From: Candidatus Aenigmatarchaeota archaeon
GTDB taxonomy: Archaea > Aenigmatarchaeota > Aenigmatarchaeia > JACPZZ01
Assembly (NCBI GenBank): GCA_016195275.1
Contig: JACPZZ010000034.1
Coordinates: 1-36,138, forward strand
Direction of reading: 5' to 3'
DNA length: 36,138 nt
Position numbers and translations under genes: made by a program. Under the pieces are notes generated by a model. It did not search any database, was not told the DNA's origin, and saw only the letters and a list, made by a program, of their open reading frames with translations. Positions 14,157-35,778 of the stretch are shown piece by piece; positions within the stretch are counted from its first letter, which is position 1; each line of letters opens with the position of its first letter.

Positions 14157-14474
14157 TTATTTGGGCGCTGTTAGCGGACAGCCGCATCCGACCCTGACCT
14201 TCTGCTTTTCAGCAGCGTCGCCACATGGTTCTACGTCATCGGCTTCAAGGACAACACCTTTAGCCGCGGTGCACAAAGCTGGTGAAGGATCTCCGCTGCA
14301 ACCTGTGTTGACCAAAACTTGGCAAGCGTTGTTGAAATTCACCCTCAGCTGCTGGTTGTTCGCAAAAGGGTTCCAAACGCCCATGAAAACAGCAACCACA
14401 GCGATAAGGATTATTACAGCTATTGCCAGAATTACCAGCATGTCAATCGGTAAAGAGACACCCTTGCGTTTCAT
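14157..14474 (-). CDS. class III signal-peptide prepilin-like protein, Cys-rich (105 aa)
   Basis: The N-terminus MKRKGVSLPIDM is followed by about 20 hydrophobic residues (LVILAIAVIILIAVVAVFMG). This is a class III (type IV pilin-like) signal with likely cleavage after K-G. The mature part is short and holds six cysteines, including ACQVLVNTGCSG, ALCTAAKG, EPCGD and a terminal VGCGCPLTAPK. The CGC near the C-terminus resembles the CGCG ends of two other proteins of the cluster. It is the last gene of the minus-strand pilus operon, 55 nt after the preceding gene, with an AAGGT Shine-Dalgarno-like sequence upstream. Confidence 0.8.
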   Translation of the reverse strand: MKRKGVSLPIDMLVILAIAVIILIAVVAVFMGVWNPFANNQQLRVNFNNACQVLVNTGCSGDPSPALCTAAKGVVLEADDVEPCGDAAEKQKVRVGCGCPLTAPK

Positions 14475-14529
14475 TTTGACCTTGTAAATTATTTTCTTCT
14501 GGCTAGCTTAAATAGCTTGGTTTGGCTTT

Positions 14530-15846
14530 TCAAACCCTGTTAGTTATGCCGGCAGGTAATTGGCACGCTGTCGCGTCGTCTTTTAACTCCGTCGCCACAG
14601 ACCCGCTCTTTATTACAGAACAGCTGTGCGTCGTATAATCGAATTTTAACGTCTCGTATGGCAGCGTTTTCGCGACAACAGGCACTGTGTTTAAACTTTT
14701 CGAAGGAACAAACCCATTGGGGTCTTCGGATAAGTATTTCCCGTATACGTCCGCAAGGAACGTGAATGCCATGTTCGTTGTCTTGGTTTCTGCCGAACAG
14801 GAAAGTGTTATCGTGTCAAAGCCCGGGACGCATTTATCCGTGCAAACAGGATCGTCTTTCGGGTCTGCCGCCGGGACGCAATCCTTTACCTTTGTCTTGC
14901 ACGGTTTAGGCTCCACATACTCGCAACTGAAGTCGCAGCTGCCCCTAATTTCAGTTTTGTCCGCATCGCCATAGCCTGCCAAAAATGACGATGCGTAATT
15001 TTCAAACCTGGCATTAAACAGCGAAAACGGCAGGCCTGTTATAGCCCCTGTTATGCCGCCTGCTTTAACGCCCAGCTTGGAAAAATCTGTTTCCTGCAAA
15101 ACCTCGGACGGCATCGGATATGTTGTCGTGAAAACAGGGCACGCCTTGCTGACGCAACCAACGCCAGCGGACGGGCACGCGGTGTTCGTCTTTTGCCCGG
15201 CAGTGTTTACGCCTGTGAACGCCGCATTTATCCTGTTAACCGGTTCGTTGCTGTTCAAAAATTGTTTCGCCGCATCGTACAATGCGAAATATTTTAATGC
15301 GATTTCATTGTCTATGTACCCCTTCGAGCCTGCCGCGATTTTTATTGCCTGCGTTTCAAGCCCTTTGGAAACCTTTATTTCCTTGTCGCCTTTTACGTAA
15401 AATTTTTCCGACTTGGAAAAATCGGTGCTGTCCGGAACAACCTGGATGTTAGTGGCTCCGTAATCGATTGTTAGGAATTTTCCAGCTATGGCATGTTGCT
15501 GTAAACTGGCGATTTCGTTATCAATGTAACGCTTCAGCGTATCCTTTATCGTATCTTCGCTTGGCGGTGTTTTCCATATCGCAATATTGTCTTTTTGCGG
15601 GACTGTGTTGTCCAAACCGCCTGCTGCGCCTGCTTTTGACGCGCCTGTCTGCGCATAAACAAAAACCGCCTCTTCCACCGTCTTGCGCGCAAGCTCCGCG
15701 TAATTGATGGTTGAAAAACTTTCCTTATGCCTTTCAGAAACAATGAACGCCTCTGATGGCATGACAGAACGAAACCACCAGATTATGCCTACGCCTATCA
15801 TTATCATTACCATGCTGCCGATGAACGTTGTTACCCGCCCTCTCAT
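14530..15846 (-). CDS. pilus-locus surface protein with N-terminal anchor and Cys cluster (438 aa)
   Basis: No family is recognised. A single hydrophobic segment (MRGRVTTFIGSMVMIMIGVG, then IIWWF) opens the protein, so the rest should be extracytoplasmic. The middle is helical and polar. A cysteine-dense stretch (CDFSCEYVEPKPC, KDCVPAADP, CTDKCVPGF) lies at about residues 295-340 and further cysteines follow. No K-G prepilin site is obvious, so it may be a pseudopilin-like minor component or an anchored assembly factor. It starts 1 nt after the preceding stop, so the two are tightly coupled. Confidence 0.75.
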   Translation of the reverse strand: MRGRVTTFIGSMVMIMIGVGIIWWFRSVMPSEAFIVSERHKESFSTINYAELARKTVEEAVFVYAQTGASKAGAAGGLDNTVPQKDNIAIWKTPPSEDTIKDTLKRYIDNEIASLQQHAIAGKFLTIDYGATNIQVVPDSTDFSKSEKFYVKGDKEIKVSKGLETQAIKIAAGSKGYIDNEIALKYFALYDAAKQFLNSNEPVNRINAAFTGVNTAGQKTNTACPSAGVGCVSKACPVFTTTYPMPSEVLQETDFSKLGVKAGGITGAITGLPFSLFNARFENYASSFLAGYGDADKTEIRGSCDFSCEYVEPKPCKTKVKDCVPAADPKDDPVCTDKCVPGFDTITLSCSAETKTTNMAFTFLADVYGKYLSEDPNGFVPSKSLNTVPVVAKTLPYETLKFDYTTHSCSVIKSGSVATELKDDATACQLPAGITNRV

Positions 15847-15847
15847 C

Positions 15848-16426
15848 TTATTTCACCGTTGAATACAGCCTGTAAACAGCGGTTTTGCTGCACGACGAGC
15901 ATGCTGCGTATGGCATATAAAATTCCATCTCCGCAACCTCAGGATCGTTCTCAATCTTGTCGCCGTCTCTTGCTGCGATTATCATTCTTTTCATTGACGG
16001 CATGCCGCTGTCGAATTCTTTTCTCAGCTCGAAAATATACGGACCTTGTATAAATGTGTCAAATATGCCCTTTGCCAGCGCACCGGCATCGTTAAGCTTC
16101 CCTTCCGCATAAACATTTTTGTCCCAGCTCGTGTCGCCATTCCACTGGAACGCCGCATTCGATAAAATTCTTTTTAACTGCGGGTCGTCATTCTGTTTTA
16201 TCTCCATCCCAGACAAAAGCGCGTTTTCCGTATTCAGCGAAAAATCCAGGAAAGTGACATGGACCGTGTAGTCTATCAGGTTTCCTACGATCAGGTGCGC
16301 TATGCTCATCGAAAACAGCATTATCATGGTTGTGAAAAAAACCGAGATTATGAAAAGGAAATCGGATACGAAAAATATGTCGCCCCTTAAATTTTTCATT
16401 CTGTTTTGCTTTTTATCAAAAACCAT
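15848..16426 (-). CDS. pilus-locus membrane-anchored protein (192 aa)
   Basis: Unrecognised family. The N-terminus is basic (MVFDKKQNRMKNLRGD), followed by one TM segment (IFFVSDFLFIISVFFTTMIM, continuing LFSM). A mostly polar extracytoplasmic domain ends with YAACSSCSKTAVYRLYSTVK. ATG 16426 starts one nt after the previous stop (16428) and is preferred to an in-frame TTG at 16435. The layout parallels the two genes before it: one N-terminal TM, then a beta-rich domain. It is likely a minor pilin-like or assembly component, inferred only from context. Confidence 0.75.
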   Translation of the reverse strand: MVFDKKQNRMKNLRGDIFFVSDFLFIISVFFTTMIMLFSMSIAHLIVGNLIDYTVHVTFLDFSLNTENALLSGMEIKQNDDPQLKRILSNAAFQWNGDTSWDKNVYAEGKLNDAGALAKGIFDTFIQGPYIFELRKEFDSGMPSMKRMIIAARDGDKIENDPEVAEMEFYMPYAACSSCSKTAVYRLYSTVK

Positions 16427-16427
16427 A

Positions 16428-16868
16428 TCAACCAACCTTCGGAACGTAAACTTTCATTATTCCCGGCACTACAATATTTGTAACATTAACAGCAATGGGA
16501 TGCTCCCACAACCTGTTCTTTTCCTTCAGTATGGAGTCGTCGCCAAAAACCCAGGCATTGGATGTTATGTCTATGACGACAAGGTATTTGGTCAGGTCTG
16601 CAAAACTTATTTTTTCCCCAAACGTCTTATTGGTAAGCTTATTTAGCATTCTCGAGTCCAGCACGCCTTTCCTGTAATCCGGCTCATCGTACGTAAGAAA
16701 CGGCGAACCGGCCATGTATTGCGAAAAAATTATATATTCGCGATCAACCTGTTTGCCGTGCATCTGTATGCTGAACGACTGGAACTGCACAAGCGTCCCT
16801 AAAATTCCCAGTGTGCTGATTATCAGCGTTATGATTTTTATCAGGTTTTCCGCCATGAACGTAGACAC
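16428..16868 (-). CDS. pilus-locus membrane-anchored protein (146 aa)
   Basis: Unrecognised family. One N-terminal TM segment (NLIKIITLIISTLGILGTLV) is followed by an extracytoplasmic domain with alternating hydrophobic strands (YLVVIDITSNAWVFGDDS; IAVNVTNIVVPGIMKVYVPK). There are no cysteines, unlike its neighbours. GTG 16868 lies one nt after the previous stop and behind a GGGGGT Shine-Dalgarno-like sequence. ATG 16856 is an alternative start. Confidence 0.72.
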   Translation of the reverse strand: MSTFMAENLIKIITLIISTLGILGTLVQFQSFSIQMHGKQVDREYIIFSQYMAGSPFLTYDEPDYRKGVLDSRMLNKLTNKTFGEKISFADLTKYLVVIDITSNAWVFGDDSILKEKNRLWEHPIAVNVTNIVVPGIMKVYVPKVG

Positions 16869-16869
16869 A

Positions 16870-17340
16870 TTACCCGCCCCCGACCTTGCTGGTTATCGTC
16901 GAAATGTCCGTGTTAATTTTCTTTACTTCTATCAGCCAGTTGCGCTTCTCGTCCATTTTTACGTCAGTAGGGATTATCTTGTTGCCGGGATAGTGTATCA
17001 AAAAAAGTTTTCTCGCAGGCTGCGTCTTTACGGTTGCCTTGTCCGCCAACCGGAAAATTTCGCGCGTCGATTCGATGAGCACGTAATTGTTGCCGTTTTC
17101 CTCGGCGATCTTTATTTTGTAAGGGTTGGGCGGCATCACAAAACTGGCCTCGAACTTCGGCGCCATATCCGCTGCGGCATGGAAACCAAACAACGTCTCC
17201 GAAGCCAGCCGTGAATCAAAATTAAAAACAAACTCGCCCATGGCCGCGCCGGCATTGACTATGAATAAAATGCTTAGAAGCAGTATCCCAAGTTCCCCAA
17301 GAAAAATCATGAAATCCCGGGTAATGATTATTCCTTTCAT
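16870..17340 (-). CDS. pilus-locus membrane-anchored protein (156 aa)
   Basis: The start is fixed by an ATGA overlap with the stop of the 923-aa gene. Longer versions of this frame reach back into that gene without merit. N-terminus MKGIIITRDFMIF leads into one TM segment (LGELGILLLSILFIVNAGAA), and a beta-rich domain follows (NYVLIESTREIFRLADKATV; KLFLIHYPGNKIIPTDVKMD). No cysteines. Family unknown. The layout matches the three downstream genes, suggesting a set of minor components. Confidence 0.78.
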   Translation of the reverse strand: MKGIIITRDFMIFLGELGILLLSILFIVNAGAAMGEFVFNFDSRLASETLFGFHAAADMAPKFEASFVMPPNPYKIKIAEENGNNYVLIESTREIFRLADKATVKTQPARKLFLIHYPGNKIIPTDVKMDEKRNWLIEVKKINTDISTITSKVGGG

Positions 17341-20111
17341 CAGCCGCACCCGCACGCGATTTTGTAATCCTCGCCCGTTGTTTTGGATAGTTGCTCTAAC
17401 GTGCATTTGTCCGCGCCGCAGATCAGCCTGTTTTTCTCGGCGTAATCGATACCCGAGCATACAAAATCCCCGGTGCATTGCGCTATGCCGCAGCATGCCT
17501 TTACCGCCAATTTTGCAGCGTCTTTCGGGTTTTTCTCTATGTTGCATTGCAGTATGTTCATATGCTCTTTTCGCAGGGGCTGGAAAGGCCGGAAAGGCCA
17601 GGTTGTATCGTACTCTGTCCAGACTTCTATGGAACTGCACGCCGGCTGCAACAAAAATCCTACAAGAGCAAATTTTCCAAAGTCCGCAATCACAGAGCAC
17701 ACCAAAGACCCGTAGAATCCTGATGCCATCTCATTGAATTTTCCTTCGTCGAAATAGCAGTAATTTGAACGCCCGGGCGTCGGACATTTGTCAACGTCTG
17801 CGATTACAACACCATCCTCCGTTTCGCTCTCGTAAAATTTCATCTCGGCCAGACACGGCGAAACCAGATGGAACCTTGGGTTTTCCTGGAAAGAGAATGC
17901 GCCCACACCTGCGCCCAGCGGTGATGTGGGCCCGTGTCTCTTTAGCTTGAGGTCAACGCTTTTTGATACTACGTACGCTGTTTCATAGTCTTTGATCTGT
18001 TCTTCCGCGACATCGACCTTTTTTTGCTCCACGCCCTTCTGGTTTAAACAAACCGTGTTTGACTCGCATCCTGCGTTTGGGGATTTTAGATAGGAGTATT
18101 TCAGATCATTTTCCACGTCCGACACAACATATCCTTGCATATTCAGTTTCAGGAATTTGGTGGTGCCCTTGGCCTGCCAGCCTCCAAGATCATTGTAGAT
18201 CTGGTATGGCAGGAAATCATATCTATCGTCGGCCATTAACGCCAGCGATTCCGGTTCTCTTTTCCAGGACGCGGATAACATGGAGATTTCAAGCATCTCG
18301 TCTTTGTCTATGAACGGGCTTGCAGGATCTGCAGGGTCCACTTTGATTTTTTTAGCCCTTTTAATTTCAAGCTGCAGATCACGCACTAAACGGTCTGCAT
18401 AATCCGGTATAGAAAGTTTATTGCCGGCTGAATCTATAACATCCTGACCCAACCCGGCGCCTTTTAGCTCATTTAAATAATCTGCCTTGAAAGCTGCTGA
18501 TATCTCCTGTATGTCCTTGCCCGAAGCCCCGCCTTCCAGAAGCCTTTCATAAGCGCCTTTGGATACGCTGGGCACGCCGCCTTGCACGCCTTTTTTCGCT
18601 TCAGTCTCTAGGAAAATAAACATCGATGTGTCTGTCTGCGCCCCTGCCAATATCGCCTTTCCGTCTCTTACAAAAAACTTTTCCACAGCGCCTGCAAACT
18701 GGCCTTCGGTTTCCAGTTGCGTGGTGATTTTAAGGTCGCTAAATTTTTTCTTTATCCCGTCTATTATAGGGGTCGGTTTTCCTGCATCGTCGAAGAATTC
18801 AAGTCTTCTGAAAACATCGGCTGCATTTGTTTTTTTCGAGAACTGTGTTATCCCGCTCTGGTCGAAAAATACGGTTATAGGCCTGTGGGCATAAAGTCCG
18901 TATTTGGCTGCCATCGCCCTTGCGGATGCATCAAACGCTTTGCTGCTCTCGTCCATGGCCTTGCCCACGAGTTCATAGAACCCCTTCTGTTCGCCTTTTG
19001 CAATCTTTTCCTCCGAATCAAGAACGATACGCTTGAAAGTTGTTGTCGCGGTGTCGATTTGCTGGCCACCCGCTATCTCCGCGCCGGAATAAGCAAAGAA
19101 TTTCTGCAAATTTCTTCCCATCTCCTGCTCTTCCTGCGCAGCGCTTTGAAGAAGTCCGCCGGTCCTCTTGCCTGTTTTCGTATCCGGCACGCCGTTGATC
19201 AATTCGTCCAAGTCTGTCCTTTTTCCAGAAGGCACGACAGCCTTTTCGATGAATTTTGCCGGATCGCCTGGATCGACAACCCTGATCGTCCTGACAGCCT
19301 TTTCGATCCCTTCCGCTGTTGTTACATCAACGGTTTCTATTAGCCCGTTATCGGTCATTGCACCCAAAAAACCTATTCCCGTCACCCTGCCAAAAAGTTT
19401 GGGTGACGTCGAACTTGTTATGTACTTTCCCGGTATGCTCAACACGTCCGTGATACGGCTGGCATCCACAATAAACCTGATTGCGGCCTTTGTTTTTGTG
19501 GCAATCGCATCTTCCATGTATTTTATTACTTTCGCACTAATTGTTATCGGCTTTCTCGCAATATCGACCAGTGTTTTTGGCAGGAAAACTGACCCGACTT
19601 TTCCTGCAGCATTTTTAGAAATCTTGGAAGCAAAATCCGTGGTTGTTTTTCCGATCTTTGTTTTTGAAATTACGGATAAAGTCCCGCTGAACATAGAAAG
19701 CCCTATATTGGTGGCGGCAATCTGGGCAAAGTTTTTTGTGAACGGGTAGCTCTCGTCAAACTTGTACGAACCTTCGGCCAGGCCGGTGGGCGATTCGGGA
19801 AAATGCTCCCAGTATATCATATACTCGGGTGTGGAAAAGGCTCTATAATCTACAGGGTTTAAAGTCAGCGGGCTGCCGACTTTGTTCTGGCACAGCATCG
19901 CATACGTCGTGTAAGGGCTGTCCTTGGTGTATGTCCCTGTGACCGCGACAGTCTGCACAGCGTTTTTGATGTTGTTCGCTGTCCTTTTCGCAAGGTCGTC
20001 GCAATAAGGCCCGCCTATCAGCGTGTAAATAAGAAAAGACGTTATAACGAGTATGACTATGCCGGCAAGAAGGAACACCTGGTCCTGCCCGAATCCTTTT
20101 TTCTTCGACAC
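17340..20111 (-). CDS. giant prepilin-like surface protein, 923 aa, ending CGCG
   Basis: The protein starts with GTG and MSKKKGFGQDQV, followed by FLLAGIVILVITSFLIYTLI, a class III signal with likely cleavage after K-G. At 923 residues it is far longer than ordinary pilins, so it may be a tip adhesin or major surface subunit. Most of the body is polar and helical (SAAQEEQEMGRNLQKFFAYS and similar). The last 230 residues carry most of the cysteines (GCESNTVCLN, VSPCLAEM, KACCGIAQCTGDFVCSG, ICGADKCT) and the chain ends KIACGCG. No known domain is recognised. It follows a 206-bp spacer with purine repeats and overlaps the next gene by ATGA. Confidence 0.82.
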   Translation of the reverse strand: MSKKKGFGQDQVFLLAGIVILVITSFLIYTLIGGPYCDDLAKRTANNIKNAVQTVAVTGTYTKDSPYTTYAMLCQNKVGSPLTLNPVDYRAFSTPEYMIYWEHFPESPTGLAEGSYKFDESYPFTKNFAQIAATNIGLSMFSGTLSVISKTKIGKTTTDFASKISKNAAGKVGSVFLPKTLVDIARKPITISAKVIKYMEDAIATKTKAAIRFIVDASRITDVLSIPGKYITSSTSPKLFGRVTGIGFLGAMTDNGLIETVDVTTAEGIEKAVRTIRVVDPGDPAKFIEKAVVPSGKRTDLDELINGVPDTKTGKRTGGLLQSAAQEEQEMGRNLQKFFAYSGAEIAGGQQIDTATTTFKRIVLDSEEKIAKGEQKGFYELVGKAMDESSKAFDASARAMAAKYGLYAHRPITVFFDQSGITQFSKKTNAADVFRRLEFFDDAGKPTPIIDGIKKKFSDLKITTQLETEGQFAGAVEKFFVRDGKAILAGAQTDTSMFIFLETEAKKGVQGGVPSVSKGAYERLLEGGASGKDIQEISAAFKADYLNELKGAGLGQDVIDSAGNKLSIPDYADRLVRDLQLEIKRAKKIKVDPADPASPFIDKDEMLEISMLSASWKREPESLALMADDRYDFLPYQIYNDLGGWQAKGTTKFLKLNMQGYVVSDVENDLKYSYLKSPNAGCESNTVCLNQKGVEQKKVDVAEEQIKDYETAYVVSKSVDLKLKRHGPTSPLGAGVGAFSFQENPRFHLVSPCLAEMKFYESETEDGVVIADVDKCPTPGRSNYCYFDEGKFNEMASGFYGSLVCSVIADFGKFALVGFLLQPACSSIEVWTEYDTTWPFRPFQPLRKEHMNILQCNIEKNPKDAAKLAVKACCGIAQCTGDFVCSGIDYAEKNRLICGADKCTLEQLSKTTGEDYKIACGCG

Positions 20112-20317: not shown

Positions 20318-20653
20318 CTATCCGCAGCCGCAGAAAGTTTTTACTTTGTCCGAGGCAATGCCTATCTTGTCTGCTGCAGACTCAAGGGATATCTGATTTT
20401 TGGCATCGCCGGGTCCGAACGTCGCCCTTAAATTTTCAGGTACAGTGCACATGACTTCATCCGGGTCTGTGCATGTCAGCGGCATGTTCAACTGGCAGCA
20501 GCCTCGCACGAAAGTCTGTTTGCCCAGCTCGCCTGTCGGCTGCTGGCCGCCCAGGATTACAACCCCGACCAGCACAGCCAGCACAATTACAGCAAGAACT
20601 ATGATTACCATTACTTCAACAGCCATCATGCCTTTGGTTTTTATGGACGTCAT
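20318..20653 (-). CDS. class III signal-peptide prepilin-like protein ending CGCG (111 aa)
   Basis: MTSIKTKGMMAVEV leads into MVIIVLAVIVLAVLVGVVIL: a class III signal with cleavage expected after K-G. The mature domain contains GCCQLNMPLTCTDPDEVMC and ends VKTFCGCG, so most cysteines are in two clusters. Identity as a pilin is inferred from the signal and operon. Its mRNA is bracketed by hairpins, one following the upstream 140-aa gene and one directly after its own stop. Confidence 0.8.
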   Translation of the reverse strand: MTSIKTKGMMAVEVMVIIVLAVIVLAVLVGVVILGGQQPTGELGKQTFVRGCCQLNMPLTCTDPDEVMCTVPENLRATFGPGDAKNQISLESAADKIGIASDKVKTFCGCG

Positions 20654-20734: not shown

Positions 20735-21157
20735 TTATATACATTTCTTTGTGCCAGCATCGCATTTAAGCCCGGCCGAGCATTTGACAGTCAAATCATT
20801 GCACGCAGCCCCTTTGCCGGCAGCGAGTATCCCGCAGCATCTTATGTGGCAGTTCTTCGCATCTGTGATGCCGGCCAGTCCGCATTCCTTCCAGAGTTTT
20901 ATGTTTTCGTCCTTGACTTTGATCCCAACGCCCTGCAGCAAAGTTTTGCATGCCGATTCCTCGTAATCGGCTCCGCATACCTTGTTGTTGCAGCCGAAAT
21001 CTCCTTGGTATGTTGTGCACGCAAATTCCAGCGTCCCGCTTTGTTTAACCGTGTTTATATTGGGTATGATAAAAACAAAAACTATCCCGAGTATCACAGC
21101 CAAAAGAATAATCCCTATCAAAACAACCTGTGCAAGGCTTATCTCGCGTTCCGGCAT
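20735..21157 (-). CDS. Cys-rich pilus-locus protein, pseudopilin-like (140 aa)
   Basis: MPEREISLAQVV leads to a 20-residue hydrophobic segment (LIGIILLAVILGIVFVFIIP). The K-G site of its neighbours is missing (R-E-I-S instead), so it may be uncleaved or use another site. The extracytoplasmic part has about 13 cysteines, including CTTYQGDFGCNNKVCG, CHIRCCG and CSAGLKCDAGTKKCI. Many disulfides are likely. The last motif resembles short Cys-knot or EGF-like tails but no named domain is clear. Confidence 0.78.
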   Translation of the reverse strand: MPEREISLAQVVLIGIILLAVILGIVFVFIIPNINTVKQSGTLEFACTTYQGDFGCNNKVCGADYEESACKTLLQGVGIKVKDENIKLWKECGLAGITDAKNCHIRCCGILAAGKGAACNDLTVKCSAGLKCDAGTKKCI

Positions 21158-21211: not shown

Positions 21212-21406
21212 CTAACATCCGACTCTCAGCCCTTTCATCAGGTCGCAAAGCGCATCCCCTATCATAGGGATCGCATTTAATGCGGCCGGCTTCCCCGCCA
21301 CGACAACAAGGAAAACGCCGGCTCCCAGTATTATCAGCAGACCGGCAACAATAAGCGCGAGCAGCAGAACCTTGTCGCTCACCTGCCCCTTACTGGCATT
21401 TCCCAT
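21212..21406 (-). CDS. small class III prepilin-like protein (64 aa)
   Basis: MGNASKGQVSDKV is followed by LLLALIVAGLLIILGAGVFL. K-G-Q at the signal boundary is the classic class III cleavage context, with cleavage between G and Q. The mature peptide is about 57 residues with two cysteines near the end (DALCDLMKGLRVGC). The start overlaps the 3' end of the preceding 112-aa gene by 17 nt, indicating translational coupling. Its small size suits a major or minor fibre subunit. Confidence 0.75.
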   Translation of the reverse strand: MGNASKGQVSDKVLLLALIVAGLLIILGAGVFLVVVAGKPAALNAIPMIGDALCDLMKGLRVGC

Positions 21407-23679: not shown

Positions 23680-23693
23680 CAATTCACCTCAAG

Positions 23694-26897: not shown

Positions 26898-29800
26898 TCA
26901 CAAAACCCTTGCGGTCATGCGCGGCATTTGTTCTTTTATCCTTGAAGAAAACCATTTGTCCCAGCGGGAAAATATCTCCTTCGGATCGAGATAACCAGTC
27001 TCTTCCTTCAACCTCGATGAAATGATATGGAACTGTTCGTTGGACGCCGTCACCCACGGCGCCTCTATGATCTCGGGTAAGTTAAATTTGACAGAATAAC
27101 CGACCATTGATTTTTTGATGTTCGCCCTCAACTGAATGTTTTCCCACACATCCTCCCATTTGCCTTCCCACTCCCTCGTTAGCGATGCTATGCGGTTGAT
27201 TATTTCCGACTCGCCTGTTGAAAGGATCTCAGTCGGCTTTAAAGAATCTGCCGCGGCAGAATATTCCATCAAATTCACAAAACCTTTCTCCTCATAAGGG
27301 TCGTTTTTCCAGTGTTTCCTTACCTCTGTCAGATCCGTGACCCGGCGGAATTTGTGCAAGCCGTCCGCGGAGCGCAACATTTTAGATATTACAATTATGT
27401 CCGTGGCTTTGAAGCTCGTTGACGGCACCCCTAAATCATTTACAACACGGTCGTATACGCCGTAAGGCGATTCGCCGTGGATTGTCCCTGCTACAACATT
27501 GGATAAAGCGCCTATTCTCATTGCCTCATAGAGTGCGCGAGCTTCTGTGTTGTGCAGCAAAATGCCACCAAAACCGCCGACAAAGTTCTGGGTTGGGTTT
27601 ACGGAAAGGTCGTAAACGTATTCTGGTTCCTCTAATACCATTTCTTCTATTTCTTTTACTTCGTCCAAGAAGAAGTTGCCATTTACAAACGTCCTAATGA
27701 AATCATCCGCGTCGGTTTCAGGGTCTTCTACGATTTTTCTTAGATAATCCAAACTGCATTTCTTTAGCCTTCTAAGATGCCTGTATTTTCTTGTCAGTTT
27801 AAGATGTTTTTCCAGTTCTTTCGGGTCAAAATCCACACTGTTAAATTTGGAATGCGAGAATGATTTTGTGTGCGGTTTTTTATCTTTGTTTACAAATCCA
27901 ACCAATGATAAAAATTTTCTGACTTCTTCCAGCTTTTTGAACTCGACTGTATATATTGGATTTTTCGATCTTGAGTTTGTTTGCTGGCGAACTCTTGCTA
28001 CTATACCTAAACAAAGCAACAAATACATAACATCTTCTGCCAGCTTTTTTGAAGTTGTATGATACCGTATAGAATTTCCTGACTGCTTGCTAATCGTGAA
28101 AGATCCGTCCCCGCTGTATAAGCCTCTTAAGAAGGAGCAAATTTTTTCTAACGACAACCCATAAATGATCGGTGGTATCCTTTTGTTTTCCGCATACTTA
28201 CCGCATTCCAATTTGTCTATCAATGTTGCTAAAGGCACACTCTGGATCTTTATTTGTTTGGATACGCCCCACCCAAGCGTTTCTCTTACATATGGTTCAA
28301 TACCGAACAGGCTGTTTGAGAGCGAAATTACGTCATTGACTATGGCATCATTGTTGTTGGAGATCGACACGTTACCCTTGCCAACCCACCCATCAGAAAC
28401 TATATAGCCCAAAAACCTGCAGAAATCCGCATTTATAGGCAACTTCGCCGGTATTGTATTGCTTGTGCCGGATTTGATCCTTATAGTACTGATATCAGGT
28501 TCAACGTTAGCGCAACCCAGCAGAGATGTAAACGAGTTTACAGGAAGGTTTGTTTTCTGGGTAGTTAACAGATAGTGGTATATGTCCTTTGTGTTGCAAA
28601 CCTCGCTTGACTTTTTCCAACCGAGAACTTTAATCGCGCGCCTTATCTGGTCTTCTGCGTTGGAAACCCGCAATTCCGGGAGCATTTCCGTCGCGTCAAT
28701 ATGTTCCACGTCATTGTAGCCGTACGGTATAACCGAAGGTATAATTATCTTGTCGCCGACTTTCAGGTCCCTGCACTCTATCGGCGCTATCCTAAAATTC
28801 TGTGCCGTGAAAAGGCTGTGATCGTGTGTTACGGTGACCTCTCTGCCTGTTTTCGTTTTTATTTTCAATAATTTGTCCCTCTTCGGATGCTTAACAAAGC
28901 CAGAAAGTCTTGACAATCCGAATTTAAGATCGGGCCCGATAGTCGGTACTAATATACCTTCGGTTGGTTTACCTTCCAAATCCTTGATCTGAATTCTTTT
29001 TGCTTCTCCGCTTTCCACTATGAAAACTTCCTCGTTTCCGCGTATAGAACTTCGCACTTCACCCACAATCAAACTTGAATCGCCCAATCTCAATGCAGTG
29101 CGCAACGCCTCGTCAGCGGCCATCTCTGTTTCAACGTGCGTTATAACAGAGCGCGATTTCAACCGCTCAATGTTGTAACCTATTTTTCTCATGTAATCGA
29201 CGGCAAGTTCAATAGTATCTTCGACGGTTAGGATTCGCTTGTTCGGCGAGATCTCAAGCATCAGGGCGTTTAACAATGAAGTGTTGCTTACAATAACCCC
29301 ATTAGCTACAAAGTTGTGACTTGGTTCCACTGTCAAATCATAAACAAAGCCGTCTTTATCTTCAACTTGCTCCACTGTTTTTACTTCGTCCCAGTATATG
29401 TCCGACTCCGCAAGAAGCTTTAATTTTTCTATCTTTTTTGCCGCCTCTTCCGAATTGGCATCTTTCCACACGCCTTCTACGAATCCGATGATTTTTGCGA
29501 TATTTTCCGGCCTGTGTCGTGTATGGTAAATATATCTTCTGTTAGAAATGCTCACACCCGTAGATTTTTCGATACGCTCTGTTTCGATATTGAGTAATTT
29601 TATTATTTCGTAAAGTTCTTTCGACGGGGCTTCTGTTTTTATCAAACTTGCCATATTTTCGTAATTGGAAATTTTATGTGCTATTTGATCTATGTTATTA
29701 TTCCATTGCTCAGAATAACCCGTTAACAGGTTTTGTATAGAACCTCTATGGACAGTTAACGTCGGTTTTGCGTAGAAGTGGTGCTTTATCGTGGTTGTTG

Positions 29801-32800
29801 GTATTCCCAACTCTCTGGACATATATTCGTAACTCAACGGTAAATCAGTTTGAACAAAATTCTCCATGCTTCCATCAAACCGGTTTGCACGCTCTTTGAT
29901 AAGTTTTATACACGCATTACAAAATAATTTTGTTGCATTAAGGTCTTCAAATGTCTGATTAAAATGAGAGCTTACCACGCCTCTGGGCAAACCGCTTTCC
30001 CTTGCTATATCCCCCTGAGAAATACCAAGGATTTTTGTGCATTCTATGAGATCTTTAACCAGCATTTTTGCGGCGTTATACCCTATGGCAAAGTCTTTAA
30101 TCTCGACTATGTTATTTTCAACGCCCCCAAGCTCTTTTTTACGTTCCTCGATTATTTTTATCAGGTTAAATAACTTTCTTCTGCTTAAGCCCCATTTTTT
30201 GCCGGCGTAGATGTCTGGTCTGAACAGTTTCCTTTTGTCCCTCGTAAACTCAATCCTAAGTTTTTTTACCAGGTCTGTTGCCATCGCCTCGGCAGGGATA
30301 AGATCGTATCCGTAATGTTTCCATTTCCTATCTACTAATTCGGATAGCCTGGCTTTTTTTTCAGGGTGATTATACCCCACTTCGTTGAATTTTGCCGCAT
30401 TTTCTTCGCTGACAATCAACCTGTAGTATGTTTTGATCGCCACGTTTTTTTCATAAACGGACGATATGATTCCGAATCTTAAAAGTAACGATTGCATTTG
30501 ATTTACCATGGCTTTGCTGGCGGTAGAAAATTCTATCTCTCTCCGTGAGTTACTAACGCCGGAGTCGCAATCGAAATAAGATCTTATGAAAGATTTTATC
30601 AGATCTTTGGGAAGCTTAAGAAACCTGCCTTTCAACTCCAGTATGCTAGCTTTCCTCCCTGCCGGGATCCCGATGTTTCGTAGAAACCTCACAATTTCCC
30701 GATTGTGTATCCTTGCCTTGGTTATCTTCCCGTATCTGTTTGAATATTCCTCTTTCGCGTCCAAGCCGAATATTTTTTTCGAAAGGTCTACAAAAATTTT
30801 CCTGAGCTGGCAGTTTGTATTATGGAAACTTACGCCGGATTTTTCTATGGAACCGTCCCCATAAACATAGCCCAAAAAACTCATGAAATCTCTGTTTAAT
30901 TTGGGAAGTTTTACTGGCTTGGAACTGGTCCGCCCCTTGAACTCTATCTGATCGAATTCAAATTCGTTTTTTGAGGCCAGTTTTTTGAAAAGTTTCGCCT
31001 TGATTACCTTGGACCTTATTTTTCTGATCGCCTGCAGATCTTCGTCATCGGCACTAAGATTTCCTGTTTTATTCAGGATGGATTTCTTCGGTAGATTTAT
31101 GTAAGAATCGTCCGGGATGTCGGATATTGTAAATTCGTCGATATTCGTATCTTCTATGCTGATGTATCTGGGTGTGGCTATCATCATACTGGGTTTTATT
31201 TCGTCTGCGCGTATTTTTGAAAATTCGCTTTCTGACAGACAAAAATACGGATGTTCCTGCGTTGTTAACACCGTCTTGCCTTTCTTGGTCTTTATTTTTA
31301 TCAGCTTTTTGTCATTCGGCCTTTTCCATACAGCCGTAACTTTAGTTCTTTCTAATTTCATTCTATCGTTTAATGCCAGCAACTCAATGCCTTCCGGCAG
31401 GCATATCTGGTCGTTTCCTATTTTCATCGGTCGATTGATTTTGAATTCGTTGTCCACTATAACCTTTATCGGCACGATGTTTCCATCTGCAAGCTGAACC
31501 AACGTGTCACCGCTTAGGCACTTGCCGCTGCCGCGTCCACCTGCCACGAGCATGCTTGAAGACCCGTCTACCAAAAAACTCATTACGCCGGCGAATAACG
31601 GGTCTATCATCCCTGATTTTATGAATAACGGAAGCGTCCACGGTCTGTCTCTGTGTCTACGGAATGCAAACGCCAGCCCTTCCGGAGACAATGTCTTTGT
31701 TATCGCAGCGACTCTCGCCCGCCCGCCCGGCACGTTTATGTCCGTGTCCAAAACAGGGTTCGCTTCGTCCAAAGGTCTGCCCGAAGCTATCCTGAATCTT
31801 GTCGCCCACGATTCGGCGTCGTCTTTTGTAGGAATGAGGTTTGTAGAGCATTCGTTATAGTCTGAATGGTTTATGTAAATCGGGTTTTGCCCGATAGGCG
31901 AGTTGATGTAAATGTCCTGTATCTTTTCGTCGGCTAAAAGTATTTCCAGTACGCCAAAACCTGCTGTGTATCTTGTAAGGACCTTGGTTATATTTTCGAT
32001 TTCCATTGGATTCAAAAAAATTCCCATGTTCGTTGACAAGTCGCGTATCATGTCGCGGCCGATGTTGTAGAATATTTCGCGCGCGCGTTCCGGTTCCGAG
32101 AACTCGGTTTCAACAGGCTTGTGCTCTCCCATGTAGCGCCGCGCGGCGTCGAGCAGCATGTATTTGTCCTCTGTTAACTGGAATTCCGGAGGGATGACAT
32201 GGTAGACTAATTCGGATTTCGTCGGTATCCGGTAAATTTCAACCTCTATATCGCCCACTTTGTAACGGTCTATGGCCTGCCCGTCCTTTGGGGTTGTGGA
32301 CATGAACCGGGTTAACATGAAGTTAGGCCGTATGGTCGGGTGGAAAATCTCGCGGTAAAGCGTCCTGTCCCCTATGTGATAGCCGGCTATATTGTCCTTT
32401 ACCATTTGTATGAGCGCCGTCGATTCCAAAATCCTTTGTATCGGCGCCAGCGCGTTATTTGCATAATGCGCGTAGCATTGTATATGGTAAGGGTTTTTCT
32501 TGGCCTCGATTTTTACCTTCCTTATCTCGCGCAAAATCTCTGCATAAGCGCCTATGGGGTCGCGCCTCATTAAGTCGATGACAATACGCTGCAAATTGTG
32601 GCTTCGTTCAGCTGTGTGGCGGTCGCAGTTCGGTATTGAGATGTTCGTGACTGTTAGCAATCTCCTTCCACGGACGATCTCGTCAAGCGCATTGGCAATC
32701 TCAACCAACAGCCGGGTTTGCTCCCAGTCGTATTCGTATTCGCGCGTTTCGGCAAGGACAATACGGGAAACTTTCTTGACTTCGGCTATCTTGTCTATTG

Positions 32801-32909
32801 CCGCGGCCATTATAGCCTCGAAGTCCTCAAGGCTTGAGCCGTATAAAGTTCCCAAGGTGTTTAACCTTATTGAATTGTCCTCCGGGTTGTACTCGAACTG
32901 TAAAGCCAT
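26898..32909 (-). CDS. type II/IV secretion (PilT/TadA/GspE-like) ATPase interrupted by two inteins
   Basis: The frame of 2003 codons encodes a pilus-assembly ATPase with two in-frame inteins. The exteins (1-463, 1210-1287, 1788-2003) sum to 757 residues. Extein 1 holds a long N-domain and the secretion-ATPase N-terminal region (YTAGFGVLEILLADEKIQDI; INVPGGRARVAA), ending at Walker A GGRGSGK, with T-S-L after intein 1. Extein 2 has ILTVEDTIEL (Asp box) and the Walker B region SSLIVGEVRS. Extein 3 starts TEARALYEAMRIGALS and has the His box AGTIHGESP. It drives pilin assembly with the TadC-like protein encoded next. ATG 32909 is supported by a TATA-like box in the divergent spacer. Activity requires both inteins to splice. 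Confidence 0.93.
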   Translation of the reverse strand: MALQFEYNPEDNSIRLNTLGTLYGSSLEDFEAIMAAAIDKIAEVKKVSRIVLAETREYEYDWEQTRLLVEIANALDEIVRGRRLLTVTNISIPNCDRHTAERSHNLQRIVIDLMRRDPIGAYAEILREIRKVKIEAKKNPYHIQCYAHYANNALAPIQRILESTALIQMVKDNIAGYHIGDRTLYREIFHPTIRPNFMLTRFMSTTPKDGQAIDRYKVGDIEVEIYRIPTKSELVYHVIPPEFQLTEDKYMLLDAARRYMGEHKPVETEFSEPERAREIFYNIGRDMIRDLSTNMGIFLNPMEIENITKVLTRYTAGFGVLEILLADEKIQDIYINSPIGQNPIYINHSDYNECSTNLIPTKDDAESWATRFRIASGRPLDEANPVLDTDINVPGGRARVAAITKTLSPEGLAFAFRRHRDRPWTLPLFIKSGMIDPLFAGVMSFLVDGSSSMLVAGGRGSGKCLSGDTLVQLADGNIVPIKVIVDNEFKINRPMKIGNDQICLPEGIELLALNDRMKLERTKVTAVWKRPNDKKLIKIKTKKGKTVLTTQEHPYFCLSESEFSKIRADEIKPSMMIATPRYISIEDTNIDEFTISDIPDDSYINLPKKSILNKTGNLSADDEDLQAIRKIRSKVIKAKLFKKLASKNEFEFDQIEFKGRTSSKPVKLPKLNRDFMSFLGYVYGDGSIEKSGVSFHNTNCQLRKIFVDLSKKIFGLDAKEEYSNRYGKITKARIHNREIVRFLRNIGIPAGRKASILELKGRFLKLPKDLIKSFIRSYFDCDSGVSNSRREIEFSTASKAMVNQMQSLLLRFGIISSVYEKNVAIKTYYRLIVSEENAAKFNEVGYNHPEKKARLSELVDRKWKHYGYDLIPAEAMATDLVKKLRIEFTRDKRKLFRPDIYAGKKWGLSRRKLFNLIKIIEERKKELGGVENNIVEIKDFAIGYNAAKMLVKDLIECTKILGISQGDIARESGLPRGVVSSHFNQTFEDLNATKLFCNACIKLIKERANRFDGSMENFVQTDLPLSYEYMSRELGIPTTTIKHHFYAKPTLTVHRGSIQNLLTGYSEQWNNNIDQIAHKISNYENMASLIKTEAPSKELYEIIKLLNIETERIEKSTGVSISNRRYIYHTRHRPENIAKIIGFVEGVWKDANSEEAAKKIEKLKLLAESDIYWDEVKTVEQVEDKDGFVYDLTVEPSHNFVANGVIVSNTSLLNALMLEISPNKRILTVEDTIELAVDYMRKIGYNIERLKSRSVITHVETEMAADEALRTALRLGDSSLIVGEVRSSIRGNEEVFIVESGEAKRIQIKDLEGKPTEGILVPTIGPDLKFGLSRLSGFVKHPKRDKLLKIKTKTGREVTVTHDHSLFTAQNFRIAPIECRDLKVGDKIIIPSVIPYGYNDVEHIDATEMLPELRVSNAEDQIRRAIKVLGWKKSSEVCNTKDIYHYLLTTQKTNLPVNSFTSLLGCANVEPDISTIRIKSGTSNTIPAKLPINADFCRFLGYIVSDGWVGKGNVSISNNNDAIVNDVISLSNSLFGIEPYVRETLGWGVSKQIKIQSVPLATLIDKLECGKYAENKRIPPIIYGLSLEKICSFLRGLYSGDGSFTISKQSGNSIRYHTTSKKLAEDVMYLLLCLGIVARVRQQTNSRSKNPIYTVEFKKLEEVRKFLSLVGFVNKDKKPHTKSFSHSKFNSVDFDPKELEKHLKLTRKYRHLRRLKKCSLDYLRKIVEDPETDADDFIRTFVNGNFFLDEVKEIEEMVLEEPEYVYDLSVNPTQNFVGGFGGILLHNTEARALYEAMRIGALSNVVAGTIHGESPYGVYDRVVNDLGVPSTSFKATDIIVISKMLRSADGLHKFRRVTDLTEVRKHWKNDPYEEKGFVNLMEYSAAADSLKPTEILSTGESEIINRIASLTREWEGKWEDVWENIQLRANIKKSMVGYSVKFNLPEIIEAPWVTASNEQFHIISSRLKEETGYLDPKEIFSRWDKWFSSRIKEQMPRMTARVL
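27549..29048 (-). other. intein 2 (500 aa, LAGLIDADG) after Walker B of the pilus ATPase
   Basis: The intein runs from SIRGNEEVFIVESG (Ser1 nucleophile) to ILLHN and is followed by Thr+1 of the extein. Block B is GREVTVTHDHSLF. Endonuclease motifs are CRFLGYIVSDGWVG and SFLRGLYSGDGSF, with SKKLAEDVMYLLLCLGI as the usual following helix. Block F reads VYDLSVNPTQNFVGG, with Gln where the usual block-F His would be. The penultimate His-Asn is intact. Removing it restores IVGEVRS-TEARALYEAM, the conserved post-Walker-B sequence of archaeal secretion ATPases. Confidence 0.92.
29283..31520 (-). other. intein 1 (746 aa, LAGLIDADG plus HTH region) in Walker A of the pilus ATPase
   Basis: The intein runs from Cys1 (CLSGDTLVQLADG) to VIVSN and interrupts GGRGSGK-TSLLN. 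Block B is GKTVLTTQEHPYF (about 81-93). LAGLIDADG motifs are SFLGYVYGDGSI (214-225) and SFIRSYFDCDSGV (310-322). Residues about 440-700 are extra and contain helix-turn-helix-like stretches (ILGISQGDIARESGLPRGVV; YMSRELGIPTTTIKHHF). Block F VYDLTVEPSHNFVANG keeps its His, but the residue before the last Asn is Ser instead of His. At 746 aa it is unusually long for an intein. Confidence 0.92.
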
Positions 32910-32924
32910 ATGATTATTATATTA

Positions 32925-32940
32925 TCCCTTAAACTAAATT
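32925..32940. promoter_or_regulatory. divergent promoter between pilus ATPase and coiled-coil gene
   Basis: TCCCTTAAACTAAATT can serve as TATA box on either strand: about 20 nt upstream of ATG 32952 and about 23-25 nt upstream of ATG 32909. The whole divergent spacer is only 42 bp. Confidence 0.4.
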
Positions 32941-32951
32941 GTATTGATAAT

Positions 32952-33365
32952 ATGGCAGTTTTTGATAAAAAGCCTGCCAATGTGCAGGCCGTTGTAGCAG
33001 AGTTAATAAGAAGGTTGAACGATGACTCAAAGCGCCTGCGCCTGGTAGAGCAGAAGATACTTAGTTTCGAGTCTACAATATCCAATTTCGACCAGGCCGC
33101 GGTTGAGCAATTCAAACAGGCAAAAAACAACTCGGACAAGCTGAATGCGAAAATTGATGAATTGGCCAACAGCATAGCAAAGCTGGAAGACGAAATTAGG
33201 AAATTGTCGAAAATGGCGGAAAGGGCCGCGACCAAAACAGAGCTGAGGGAAATACAGGGGTTTATCGATTTGATTAACCCGATAAAATCCAATTTTATAA
33301 CGATCCAGGAAGTCAGGAAAATGATCGAGGACCTTAAGGCGGAGCTGGACGCACAAAAAGTGTAA
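32952..33365 (+). CDS. coiled-coil protein, pilus/archaellum accessory-like (137 aa)
   Basis: A soluble, highly charged helical protein starting MAVFDKKPANVQAVVAELIR. Heptad-like repeats run through LVEQKILSFESTISNFDQAA and NAKIDELANSIAKLEDEIRK. The C-terminal TKTELREIQGFIDLINPIKS, then NFITIQEVRKMIEDL, faintly resembles the ends of archaellum FlaC/D/E-type accessory proteins, but that is only a resemblance. ATG 32952 is preferred to the in-frame 32910 start, which would lie in the promoter region next to the divergent ATPase. Its place beside the ATPase suggests a cytoplasmic accessory role. Confidence 0.75.
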   Translation: MAVFDKKPANVQAVVAELIRRLNDDSKRLRLVEQKILSFESTISNFDQAAVEQFKQAKNNSDKLNAKIDELANSIAKLEDEIRKLSKMAERAATKTELREIQGFIDLINPIKSNFITIQEVRKMIEDLKAELDAQKV

Positions 33366-33410: not shown

Positions 33411-34082
33411 ATGTGGCTGTTCAAGAAAAAGGGGCAGGAAACCCCCATACCCGTTAACATACCCAAGCCTGCCATGCAGGGTTCCGGTTTCTCCGCGCCT
33501 ATGAACGCCCCTCCTGCGGAATCGAGAACAGCTTTGATGACAGCCGTGAAAGAAGGCGTCGCCCAGCCGCGGCAACCAGCCGCACAGCAGGAAATTCAGC
33601 CAATGGGCTTTAACATACCTGAACCTCCGCAATCTCAGCAAAATGATTTTGAATTTCCTGTTGAACAACCGCAGCCACAGCAACAACCCGGGACAGAGTG
33701 GGAGCCCGCAATCCCCGAGATGAGTGAAATTCCTGTGGCGTTAAGCAGCTCGCCAACCGCTACGGAAGTCGAGGAAGTCGTCGAAGCTGTTGTGGAGGAA
33801 AAATGGAAACAACTGGAATTCCGCATCGACGCGATCGAAAAGCGCTTTGACGCCGTTAATGAAAGGTTGCATGACATCGATCTTCAGATGCGCACGATAA
33901 AAGAATCCGGGACCGCAGCCTCGGGCGGAATTGAAGGCAAGATCGATCGGTATCGCGAAAACCTGGACCAGATCGACTCGCGTATCGGTTCCATTGAAAA
34001 AGCCTTCAAAGAGACGCTTCCGTCAATGATAGAATCCGTGAGGGCTGTCAACGATTCTTTGCAGAAAATGAATAAGCAGTAA
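33411..34082 (+). CDS. Pro/Gln-rich linker plus coiled-coil protein (223 aa)
   Basis: MWLFKKKGQETPIPVNIPKP opens a low-complexity P/Q-rich region to about residue 115 (QPAAQQEIQPMGFNIPEPPQ). An acidic EVEEVVEAVVEEKWKQLEFR helix follows, then coiled coil to the end (IDAIEKRFDAVNERLHDIDL). There are no TM segments. It may be a cytoplasmic adaptor of the pilus machine, comparable in layout to archaellum FlaD/E-type proteins, but no specific family motif is visible. It is transcribed away from the pilus ATPase, 45 nt after the other coiled-coil gene. Confidence 0.75.
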   Translation: MWLFKKKGQETPIPVNIPKPAMQGSGFSAPMNAPPAESRTALMTAVKEGVAQPRQPAAQQEIQPMGFNIPEPPQSQQNDFEFPVEQPQPQQQPGTEWEPAIPEMSEIPVALSSSPTATEVEEVVEAVVEEKWKQLEFRIDAIEKRFDAVNERLHDIDLQMRTIKESGTAASGGIEGKIDRYRENLDQIDSRIGSIEKAFKETLPSMIESVRAVNDSLQKMNKQ

Positions 34083-34085: not shown

Positions 34086-34547
34086 TTACAATCCCGGCGG
34101 TAACGATCTGACCATTCCTGTACGCCCTGTGATAAAAAGTTGCTTCTCCAGCTTATCCAAGGTAAGGAACAACTCTTCGGCTTCTCTTGAATAATTCTTC
34201 GAAAAATCAGCCTTCACCGAAGATGTACCTAAGAAATCGCCCCTATTTTGGGCGGCGCTCACTGCAACCTCATCGTATACTCGGATAAGGAGATGATCCC
34301 ATGGCCATGCCAAAAAAATTCTTTTCCCGACCACAGATAAATTTCTAGACGCGTTGACATCTCTGTGAGACCAGACATCTCTAACTGAACAATAACCGTT
34401 TTGGCCTGAATACACAAATTGCCTGTATTGACTGTCGTAGAAAATATCTGAATGCCCAATGCTCTGGTAACTAAAATTATTAGCCGTTCTAGAAACTTCG
34501 TTATGAACAATCGTAAACGGCAACGAATAGATTCCTTCTCGCTCCAT
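34086..34547 (-). CDS. hypothetical protein (153 aa)
   Basis: I do not recognise this protein. It begins MEREGIYSLPFTIVHNEVSR and has an aromatic-rich middle (HSDIFYDSQYRQFVYSG; GKRIFLAWPWDHLLIRVYDE) and a charged C-terminus (REAEELFLTLDKLEKQLF). No TM or signal segment is evident. Reality is supported by a TATA-like CTTAAATAG (34570-34578, minus) 27 nt upstream of the ATG and by compact convergence with the coiled-coil gene (3-nt gap). Confidence 0.6.
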   Translation of the reverse strand: MEREGIYSLPFTIVHNEVSRTANNFSYQSIGHSDIFYDSQYRQFVYSGQNGYCSVRDVWSHRDVNASRNLSVVGKRIFLAWPWDHLLIRVYDEVAVSAAQNRGDFLGTSSVKADFSKNYSREAEELFLTLDKLEKQLFITGRTGMVRSLPPGL

Positions 34548-34569: not shown

Positions 34570-34590
34570 TATTTAAGTTGGATCGGATCT
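34570..34590 (-). promoter_or_regulatory. promoter of hypothetical gene 34547 with AGATCCGATC element
   Basis: CTTAAATAG is centred 27 nt upstream of the ATG. Directly upstream (34581-34590) lies AGATCCGATC in the same orientation relative to the gene as at 33381-33390. Confidence 0.45.
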
Positions 34591-34613
34591 AAGTTTCGAG
34601 GTTTGCTATATAA

Positions 34614-35195
34614 TTATTCTACAGGCTTGCCTGTTGTTGGGTCTATCTTCGGTTCTTCTGTAGTCTCAGTCTTCTCCTCATGCACGACAAACCATATAAC
34701 CGCGATTATTATGCCGAAAAAGACAAGCATTGTAAGGATCTCGCTGCTGTTTAAACTCAAATTACCGAACGAAAAAACGCCTGCGTTTGCATTCACAAAA
34801 AGGCCTGCAGCGAGTATCAGCGCGATGATAATGACCGCATACTTGAAATTGCCTTGTGTAAATTCGCTGGATTTCAGCCCGAATATGCCGACAAACATCA
34901 GCAAAACCAAAACGCCCGACAAAACGATTATCGAACTTCCGAAAAGCTTGCTGAAAAAGGACGACAAAAATCCGGAATATGGGGTAAATATCGTAAGATA
35001 GAAAGCGACTGCAAGCGCTATCACCGCATCGACGGACGTGTTTGATTTTTTGTTATCTTCGCCTTTCTTGAATATCATGACAGTCTGCAATATGCCGAAA
35101 ACAATTGAAAAGGCAAGCAGCCACGGCAATACGAAATCATAAAAGCCCATAGCCTTCAGCGTGTTTTGCAACGCGATGAAATCAAACGCGGCCAT
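34614..35195 (-). CDS. four-TM membrane protein, tandem paralogue 1 (193 aa)
   Basis: Hydrophobic protein starting MAAFDFIALQNTLKAMGFYD, with segments VLPWLLAFSIVFGILQTVMI, SVDAVIALAVAFYLTIF, SSIIVLSGVLVLLMFVGIFG, AVIIIALILAAGLFVNANAG and LTMLVFFGIIIAVIWFVV. A charged tail follows (HEEKTETTEEPKIDPTTGKP). No enzyme or transporter family is recognised. A TATA-like GGTTAAATACAT (35213-35224, minus) precedes it. It is a close paralogue of the next gene. Its place beside the pilus locus suggests a membrane accessory role, but nothing in the sequence proves that. Confidence 0.8.
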   Translation of the reverse strand: MAAFDFIALQNTLKAMGFYDFVLPWLLAFSIVFGILQTVMIFKKGEDNKKSNTSVDAVIALAVAFYLTIFTPYSGFLSSFFSKLFGSSIIVLSGVLVLLMFVGIFGLKSSEFTQGNFKYAVIIIALILAAGLFVNANAGVFSFGNLSLNSSEILTMLVFFGIIIAVIWFVVHEEKTETTEEPKIDPTTGKPVE

Positions 35196-35226
35196 TATCT
35201 ACGATTATTTTCGGATGTATTTAACC

Positions 35227-35778
35227 TTATTTCGAGCCGCTGACAACAAACCATATCACAGCGCCGATTATTCCAAAAAACAATAGTAATGTCAGCGTCT
35301 CCCCGCTCGCCAGATTAGTTCCACCAAAAGAAAAAACACCCGCATTGGCATTTATGAAAAGGCCGGCTGCGACAATTAATGCTCCGATAAGGCCACCAAT
35401 GCCCATTGGCGTAAGCTCTGTTTTATCGCCTGTTTTTTTCGACAGCAGGCCTGTAATATTGAAACCGAATATTCCTATGAACATCAAAAGGACTAACACG
35501 CCAGAAAGTACAATTATGGAGCCTCCGAAAAGCTTGCTGAAAAAGGACGAAAGAAAACCTGAGTATGGGGTGAAGATAGTAAGGTAAAACGCAACCGCAA
35601 GGGATATTACAGCGTCGACGGATGTGTTTGGCTTGTCTTCTTTTCCCTTCTTAAAAATATTTACTGTCTGCAATATTCCAAACACAATTGAAAATGCCAG
35701 CAGCCACGGCAATACGAAATCATAAAAGCCCATAGCCTTCAGCGTGTTTTGCAACGCGATGAAATCAAACGCGGCCAT
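35227..35778 (-). CDS. four-TM membrane protein, tandem paralogue 2 (183 aa)
   Basis: Paralogue of 34614-35195, nearly identical in the first 50 residues and in YLTIFTPYSGFLSSFFSKLF, but diverged in the loop (NITGLLSKKTGDKTELTPMG) and without the charged tail. The first 80 coding bases plus 11 upstream bases (35699-35789) are identical to 35116-35206. An AAGGAG Shine-Dalgarno-like sequence (35790-35795, minus) lies 11-12 nt upstream. A TnpB right end begins 24 bp before the ATG, where the other copy has its TATA region. Confidence 0.8.
   Translation of the reverse strand: MAAFDFIALQNTLKAMGFYDFVLPWLLAFSIVFGILQTVNIFKKGKEDKPNTSVDAVISLAVAFYLTIFTPYSGFLSSFFSKLFGGSIIVLSGVLVLLMFIGIFGFNITGLLSKKTGDKTELTPMGIGGLIGALIVAAGLFINANAGVFSFGGTNLASGETLTLLLFFGIIGAVIWFVVSGSK

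Follow-up and report, generated by a model that had tools for sequence, protein, structure and literature searches.

A conserved type IV pilus/Tad-like operon with many dissimilar prepilins in a Candidatus Aenigmatarchaeota archaeon

Gene order and assembly core

The 36,138-nucleotide stretch of Candidatus Aenigmatarchaeota DNA analysed here (the window) is contig C6 of a 1.07 Mb DPANN genome that is 83% complete (Aenigmatarchaeota, G000), and it carries a type IV pilus/Tad-like operon on its minus strand. The operon reads leftward from an assembly ATPase (26898-32909) through a membrane platform gene (24833-26893) to a series of small anchored proteins that extends to 14157, with intergenic spacings of -17 to +83 nucleotides save for one gap of 206 nucleotides. 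The nearest named relatives of the genome are groundwater Candidatus Aenigmatarchaeota metagenome-assembled genomes (MAGs). The open reading frame (ORF) coordinates and spacings agree with the coordinates, strand and gene set of an original prediction made for this locus, and its small anchored proteins are indeed present, but it listed thirteen proteins with one transmembrane (TM) helix and we count 14 with an N-terminal membrane helix. ORF 23679-24104 (141 residues) was considered as a further member and rejected; it has no N-terminal TM helix and no homologue in any congener, and was therefore left out of the count. For the 276-residue ORF at 16870-17700 the most likely start is position 17340, giving a protein of 156 residues whose gene overlaps the neighbouring 923-residue gene by 1 nucleotide.

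In four congeners the gene order is identical wherever the contigs extend, and all 14 anchored proteins recur in the same order; the exception is G002, whose contig stops within the 923-residue gene, so that the last five genes are out of view there. Between congeners the ATPases are 91-93% identical, the platforms 82-90% and the subunits about 30-90%, where the G002 figures for the 105- and 111-residue families are mispairings between those two families. That this is a degenerate or patchwork locus with mostly non-functional small ORFs could be argued from operon products that are little like any database family and from the unconserved ORF 23679-24104, but the synteny among congeners already refutes it, and with the clear identity and conserved signals it retains virtually no credibility. 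Most small ORFs are thus conserved in relatives, and lack of such conservation had been named as grounds for abandoning the original prediction.

The ATPase belongs to the TadA/CpaF, GspE-2 family, with Pfam T2SSE and Intein_splicing matches, and its ORF reaches 2003 residues because two inteins interrupt a protein of 757 residues. The first intein (746 residues, 464-1209; 29283-31520, minus strand) separates K from T in the Walker A motif GRGSGK/T and has LAGLIDADG domains, and the second (500 residues, 1288-1787; 27549-29048, minus strand) begins with Ser and precedes TEARALYEAM. The congener orthologues are intein-free, and the best Protein Data Bank (PDB) relatives of one of them are GspE-2 (2OAP) and CpaF; together with T2SSE, these matches identify an assembly ATPase of the VirB11/GspE family. 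Against FlaI the congener protein scored 141.6 bits (cut-off 550), well short of an archaellum ATPase.

Both inteins are of the LAGLIDADG type and are absent from all four congeners. The window genome is intein-rich: a 133-residue intein segment gave 14 intein-like matches in about ten ORFs, on contigs C1, C6, C11, C14, C15, C23, C24, C26 and C31, and the second pilus ATPase of the genome (C15) is likewise interrupted by an intein.

The platform (686 residues; minus strand) is a FlaJ/TadB-TadC-like protein of the T2SSF/PilC type. Of 17 aligned members, 14 matched Pfam T2SSF, although the window protein stayed below the cut-off (18.6 against 25.2 bits), and T2SSF also matched the C-terminal half of platform relatives (best E 2.5e-6). 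The latter match is the basis for assigning two domains, since profile comparison gave no support for an internal repeat at the depth used; comparison of the platform profile with the PDB gave no significant match. Most archaeal platforms hold two T2SSF domains (Denise et al. 2019, PMC6668835), so the tandem platform, whose presence had been correctly predicted, is ordinary and not an unusual trait.

The window contains no prepilin peptidase, as had been stated, and a search elsewhere in the genome identified a Peptidase_A24 protein on another contig (G000:C26:20017-20358; 27.3 bits, cut-off 26.5). A24 peptidases were found in 36 of the 40 genomes searched; a peptidase of the Arc_PepC (EppA) type was searched for and is absent. 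By eye, the peptidase gene (L073) lies near a gene for a TlpA-like thioredoxin-fold membrane protein and an apparent CcdA/DsbD-like gene end, neighbours with a possible link to subunit redox chemistry.

Prepilin signals, cysteines and large subunits

Class III signals were called as [KR]G ahead of a TM helix, read in orthologue alignments. The [KR]-G is kept among congeners in 11 of the 14 anchored families while the leaders vary in length and sequence, and these 11 families carry the class III prepilin signal; the eight first proposed were an undercount. Leftward from the platform, all on the minus strand, the series begins with a 142-residue anchored protein without KG (24405-24833), kept in all four congeners, followed by prepilins of 77 residues (24158-24391; KG in 4/5 orthologues) and 75 residues (23452-23679; 5/5), the 527-residue prepilin described below, a Cys-rich prepilin of 112 residues (21390-21728; 4/5) and one of 64 residues with KGQ (21212-21406; 5/5). 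A 140-residue protein with 12 Cys and a TM anchor without KG (20735-21157; kept in four congeners) then precedes a 111-residue prepilin with 6 Cys (20318-20653; KG 5/5) and a giant prepilin of 923 residues. The last five genes encode the 156-residue prepilin-like protein with MKG and the corrected start (16870-17340; KG in 4/4 orthologues), a 146-residue anchored protein without KG (16428-16868; kept in three congeners, the contig of the fourth ending earlier), prepilin-like proteins of 195 residues (15848-16435; [KR]G 4/4) and 438 residues with 12 Cys and M[KR]G (14530-15846; 4/4), and the 105-residue prepilin (14157-14474). The latter is the candidate major pilin: KG is present in all copies, its Pilin_N match falls below the cut-off, and it is tandemly duplicated in two congeners. 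The description of the remaining members as anchored only therefore holds for the 142-, 140- and 146-residue proteins, whereas the others contain [KR]-G.

An automatic count found the motif in 10 of 13 proteins in the window and in 37 of 180 ORFs with an N-terminal TM helix outside such runs (Fisher p = 5e-5), and, over all loci, in 240 of 422 anchored ORFs within the runs; since some pilins of other loci fall into the outside set, the contrast is conservative.

The giant prepilin (17340-20111) contains 18 Cys and retains KG in 5/5 orthologues. Its family is found in 85 of 156 genomes and 59 of 104 genera of the class, and in about 19 of 40 platform genomes it lies no more than about 15 kb from the platform gene, as judged by comparing positions by eye. 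The family profile gave no significant match to the PDB. A PBECR3 nuclease match (E 0.007) was confined to one of 14 members and below the cut-off, and was dismissed as noise; a structure model of the protein had a predicted local distance difference test score of 46 and was discarded.

Proteins of this size could also be read in terms of type II-like secretion, in which no long fibre is made: the short subunits would form a pseudopilus piston, and the large anchored proteins would be substrates or build a stable assembly at the surface. The large members indeed have no homologues of known function, and the nearest solved ATPase is annotated as a type II secretion system protein. However, the [KR]G on the large proteins themselves suggests that they are subunits and not cargo, and the candidate major pilin is tandemly duplicated, and we consider this explanation unlikely.

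Cysteine makes up 2.7% of the residues in the operon TM proteins and 0.9% in 13 other window proteins, in line with the high density originally reported. The number of Cys is even in 13 of 13 window TM proteins scored; the 156-residue protein contains none. When all loci are taken together, the mature part has an even number in 189 of the 198 [KR]G prepilins that contain Cys, compared to 222 of 481 other ORFs (46%; p about 4e-39), and without the window genus the prepilin count is still 149 of 158; the prepilin sequences are partly related and the p value overstates their independence, although many dissimilar families are covered. The simplest reading of an even number is that nearly every Cys is paired, and the parity suggests that the outward domains of the prepilins are closed by disulfides into locked folds. 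A DsbA-like protein that has a CPFC motif and a membrane anchor is encoded in the genome.

The 527-residue prepilin (21785-23368, minus strand), with KG in every orthologue, consists of a KG/TM stalk (about 23204-23368) and a tandem beta-sandwich-like C-terminal part (about 21785-23203). The stalk, its first ~50 residues, is 93-94% identical to that of congeners G002 and G001 and 49% to that of G004, whereas for the C-terminal part the identity is 28-29% with G002 and G001 and 50% with G004. For the C-terminal part, the three trees that pair the window genome with G004 were better than all others by about 187-237 log-likelihood units, and the concatenated other genes reject these three trees (approximately unbiased test, p < 0.001). 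The stalk thus tracks the species tree and the C-terminal part has been exchanged. Between the window genome and G001 no other large subunit has such a break, and the 105-residue pilin has a milder one (94% against 68%). A comparable case was sought in another genus (L050, L051, L053) and not found, so that exchange is not yet a general rule. Two repeats can be made out in the alignment, in which GDxxEYDV, WYHR and YYDNI-like motifs recur, and the predicted model, of modest confidence, has strands in the C-terminal part; the best sub-threshold fold matches include a GH92 mannosidase, laminin G, a fungal lectin and CBM22, with global template modelling scores of ~0.2 or lower, and provide no more than a hint of a carbohydrate-active or lectin-like beta-sandwich. 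The family profile had no significant match in the PDB. Such a break between stalk and C-terminal part is what a recognition protein under replacement would show, and from it we infer that the 527-residue prepilin may be an adhesin.

The exchanged part, in pointing to a specific ligand, also bears on whether the operon could encode a Com-like, DNA-importing pilus that captures environmental or host nucleic acid through minor pilins as receptors and feeds nucleotide salvage, as proposed for other DPANN. DNA import by pili has been proposed for Undinarchaeota (PMC7414124) and for Nanohaloarchaeota (PMC9563170), and the window gene at 5187-6737 resembles by eye an AMP phosphorylase, for which it is a candidate. 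A specific ligand argues against import, and no receiver or translocase of the ComEA/ComEC type was recognised in the operon in a search that was not exhaustive; we give this possibility little weight.

Relation to known pili and the proposed fibre

The premise that the archaeal pili known so far are made of a few small pilins does not hold as a generalisation, since multi-pilin and Cys-rich pili have been published: archaeal type IV pilus loci are described with a pair of TadC proteins, five or more minor pilins and large adhesin-like proteins (Makarova et al. 2016, PMC4858521). With clades 1 and 2 of that study (methanogen Epd-type) the operon has in common a VirB11-family ATPase, a TadC-type platform, several minor pilins and large proposed adhesins. 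It differs from them in at least 11 dissimilar prepilins per operon, giants with their own prepilin signal, a one-ORF platform, coiled-coil and 4-TM partner genes and, on inspection of the operon, no recognised ATPase of the FleN/MinD type. The pili of Pyrobaculum and Thermoproteus likewise combine large proteins and many small components with multiple conserved cysteines (PMC4858521). These organisms belong to a different lineage. We know of no subunit family that their pili have in common with the operon.

Closer in lineage, DPANN dark-matter islands with an ATPase and TadC are described as encoding "diverse pilins" in some genomes (Makarova et al. 2019, PMC6393860), and these islands and the Tad clusters of Nanohaloarchaeota (PMC9563170) likewise combine ATPase, TadC and dark-matter proposed pilins; the available parts of the two papers contain no analysis of prepilin motifs, cysteines or domain exchange that we could find. 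No pilins are annotated in the Nanohaloarchaeota clusters in PMC9563170, and the operon bears on that statement that pilins of related DPANN clusters could not be annotated. Bacterial Tad/Flp pili have a CpaF/TadA-like ATPase that is among the nearest relatives of the operon ATPase, but the operon has a one-gene, two-domain platform and many more subunits, and no secretin-, TadZ- or TadE/F/G-type match among its products. No FlaH or archaellin match was found among them either, unlike an archaellum. The window genome has a second type IV pilus locus (L057, G000:C15:20000-39000) that likewise combines an intein-interrupted ATPase with [KR]G prepilins but is more canonical and FlaI/Ups-like, with three short prepilins and a FlaJ-like platform. 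Aenigmarchaeota type IV pili have been described solely from thermal-environment MAGs (PMC8407114), a statement that does not fit the groundwater congeners here. In the open literature, which leaves most subscription papers outside, we found no account of an operon with 11 prepilins, the giant family, the Cys parity or the domain exchange.

The locus is thus real, conserved and more elaborate than first proposed, yet a known kind of machine. Synteny and conserved signals support a type IV pilus/Tad-like locus that encodes many different prepilins and has giant as well as Cys-rich members; a new surface machine was too strong a claim for what is an undescribed variant, the pilus type being partly covered by PMC4858521 and PMC6393860. 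We consider it probable that the operon encodes the assembly machinery and subunits of a heteropolymeric Tad/archaeal type IV pilus-like attachment pilus. Prepilins inserted in the membrane would be cut after [KR]-G by the A24 peptidase encoded off the locus and, by homology, polymerised by the ATPase and the two-domain platform into a filament of a short major pilin, most likely the 105-residue protein, and many small minor pilins. The large members (923, 527 and 438 residues) would carry outward domains closed by intramolecular disulfides, probably through the membrane-anchored DsbA-like protein, and the two beta-sandwich-like domains of the 527-residue prepilin, near the tip or along the fibre, may be a recognition element, with a binding part exchanged from lineage to lineage. 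The fibre would probably serve for attachment to a partner or host cell. These individual roles are proposed by analogy to pili with minor pilins and with large adhesins at the tip or base, and the partner cell is suggested by general DPANN biology.

Several observations weigh against this attachment pilus. No pilin family exceeded the Pfam cut-off among the operon products, and three anchored proteins lack KG. A fold search with the 527-residue model, itself of modest confidence, gave no PDB match below E 0.001, and apart from two weak matches the family is limited to the genus. VKOR and DsbB were searched for and not found in the 83% complete genome. The pilus is known here from its genes, and a filament is yet to be seen.

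As a more speculative extension, which we regard as possible but short of probable, the locus may represent a DPANN-specific class in which at least 10 prepilins, locked by disulfides and for the most part non-homologous, build a structured, non-uniform host-attachment fibre. Some of these prepilins are 400 to >1000 residues long, and the recognition domain of one would be replaced through recombination as the symbiont moves to a new partner. Host recognition and attachment are an open question in almost every DPANN lineage, and the operon, syntenic and widespread, supplies named genes as targets, namely those for the candidate major pilin, the conserved giant subunit and the exchanged binding part. 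The even-Cys rule also offers a simple criterion to find missed pilins.

Distribution and neighbouring genes

The platform protein was present in all 40 genomes searched, and a profile scan recovered 312 relatives, the 80 best of them belonging to DPANN or unnamed archaea. Among 65 DPANN platform loci that have 5 kb or more of downstream sequence, same-strand [KR]G prepilins follow the ATPase/platform pair in numbers of at least three in 34 loci, at least five in 28 and at least eight in 8, and 27 of the 65 have a [KR]G prepilin of at least 400 residues; these counts are approximate because a simple ORF caller was used. Array-bearing loci include Nanohaloarchaeota, and in several Woesearchaeota the core has no pilins nearby. 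The 105- and 111-residue pilins gave iterative families that overlap through the TM helix, so their broad counts were not taken as orthology.

Divergent from the operon, on the plus strand, lie genes for two coiled-coil proteins, a 151-residue ORF (32910-33365) with its family in 53 distinct related loci and a 223-residue protein (33411-34082) with a conserved C-terminal EKAFKExLPxLIESVR motif and a weak FlaC_arch resemblance in two relatives. Outside the genus (L118, L103, L072 and others) the 223-residue family has a short UBA-like N-terminal segment, GFSExEIIDxLRKEGYSxEEIDxALT, that is lost in the window genus, the C-terminal motif being common to both. A 153-residue ORF (34086-34547) is poorly conserved and was found in one congener. 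On the minus strand follow two 4-TM membrane proteins, of 193 residues (34614-35195; family in 44 distinct related loci) and 183 residues (35227-35778), the second a paralogue 78% identical to the first, with further paralogues in congeners. Both the coiled-coil and the 4-TM families are found again in dozens of platform loci.

Just downstream of the operon, two ATPase genes (10974-12356 and 12514-13827), by eye archaeal AAA of the DUF234/DUF4143 type, had no homologues in the congener neighbourhoods examined. At the contig end, beside the 4-TM genes, lies a transposase-like fragment (35821-36105; IS605/TnpB zinc-ribbon type by eye), a homologue of which occurs near the same 4-TM genes in locus L070.

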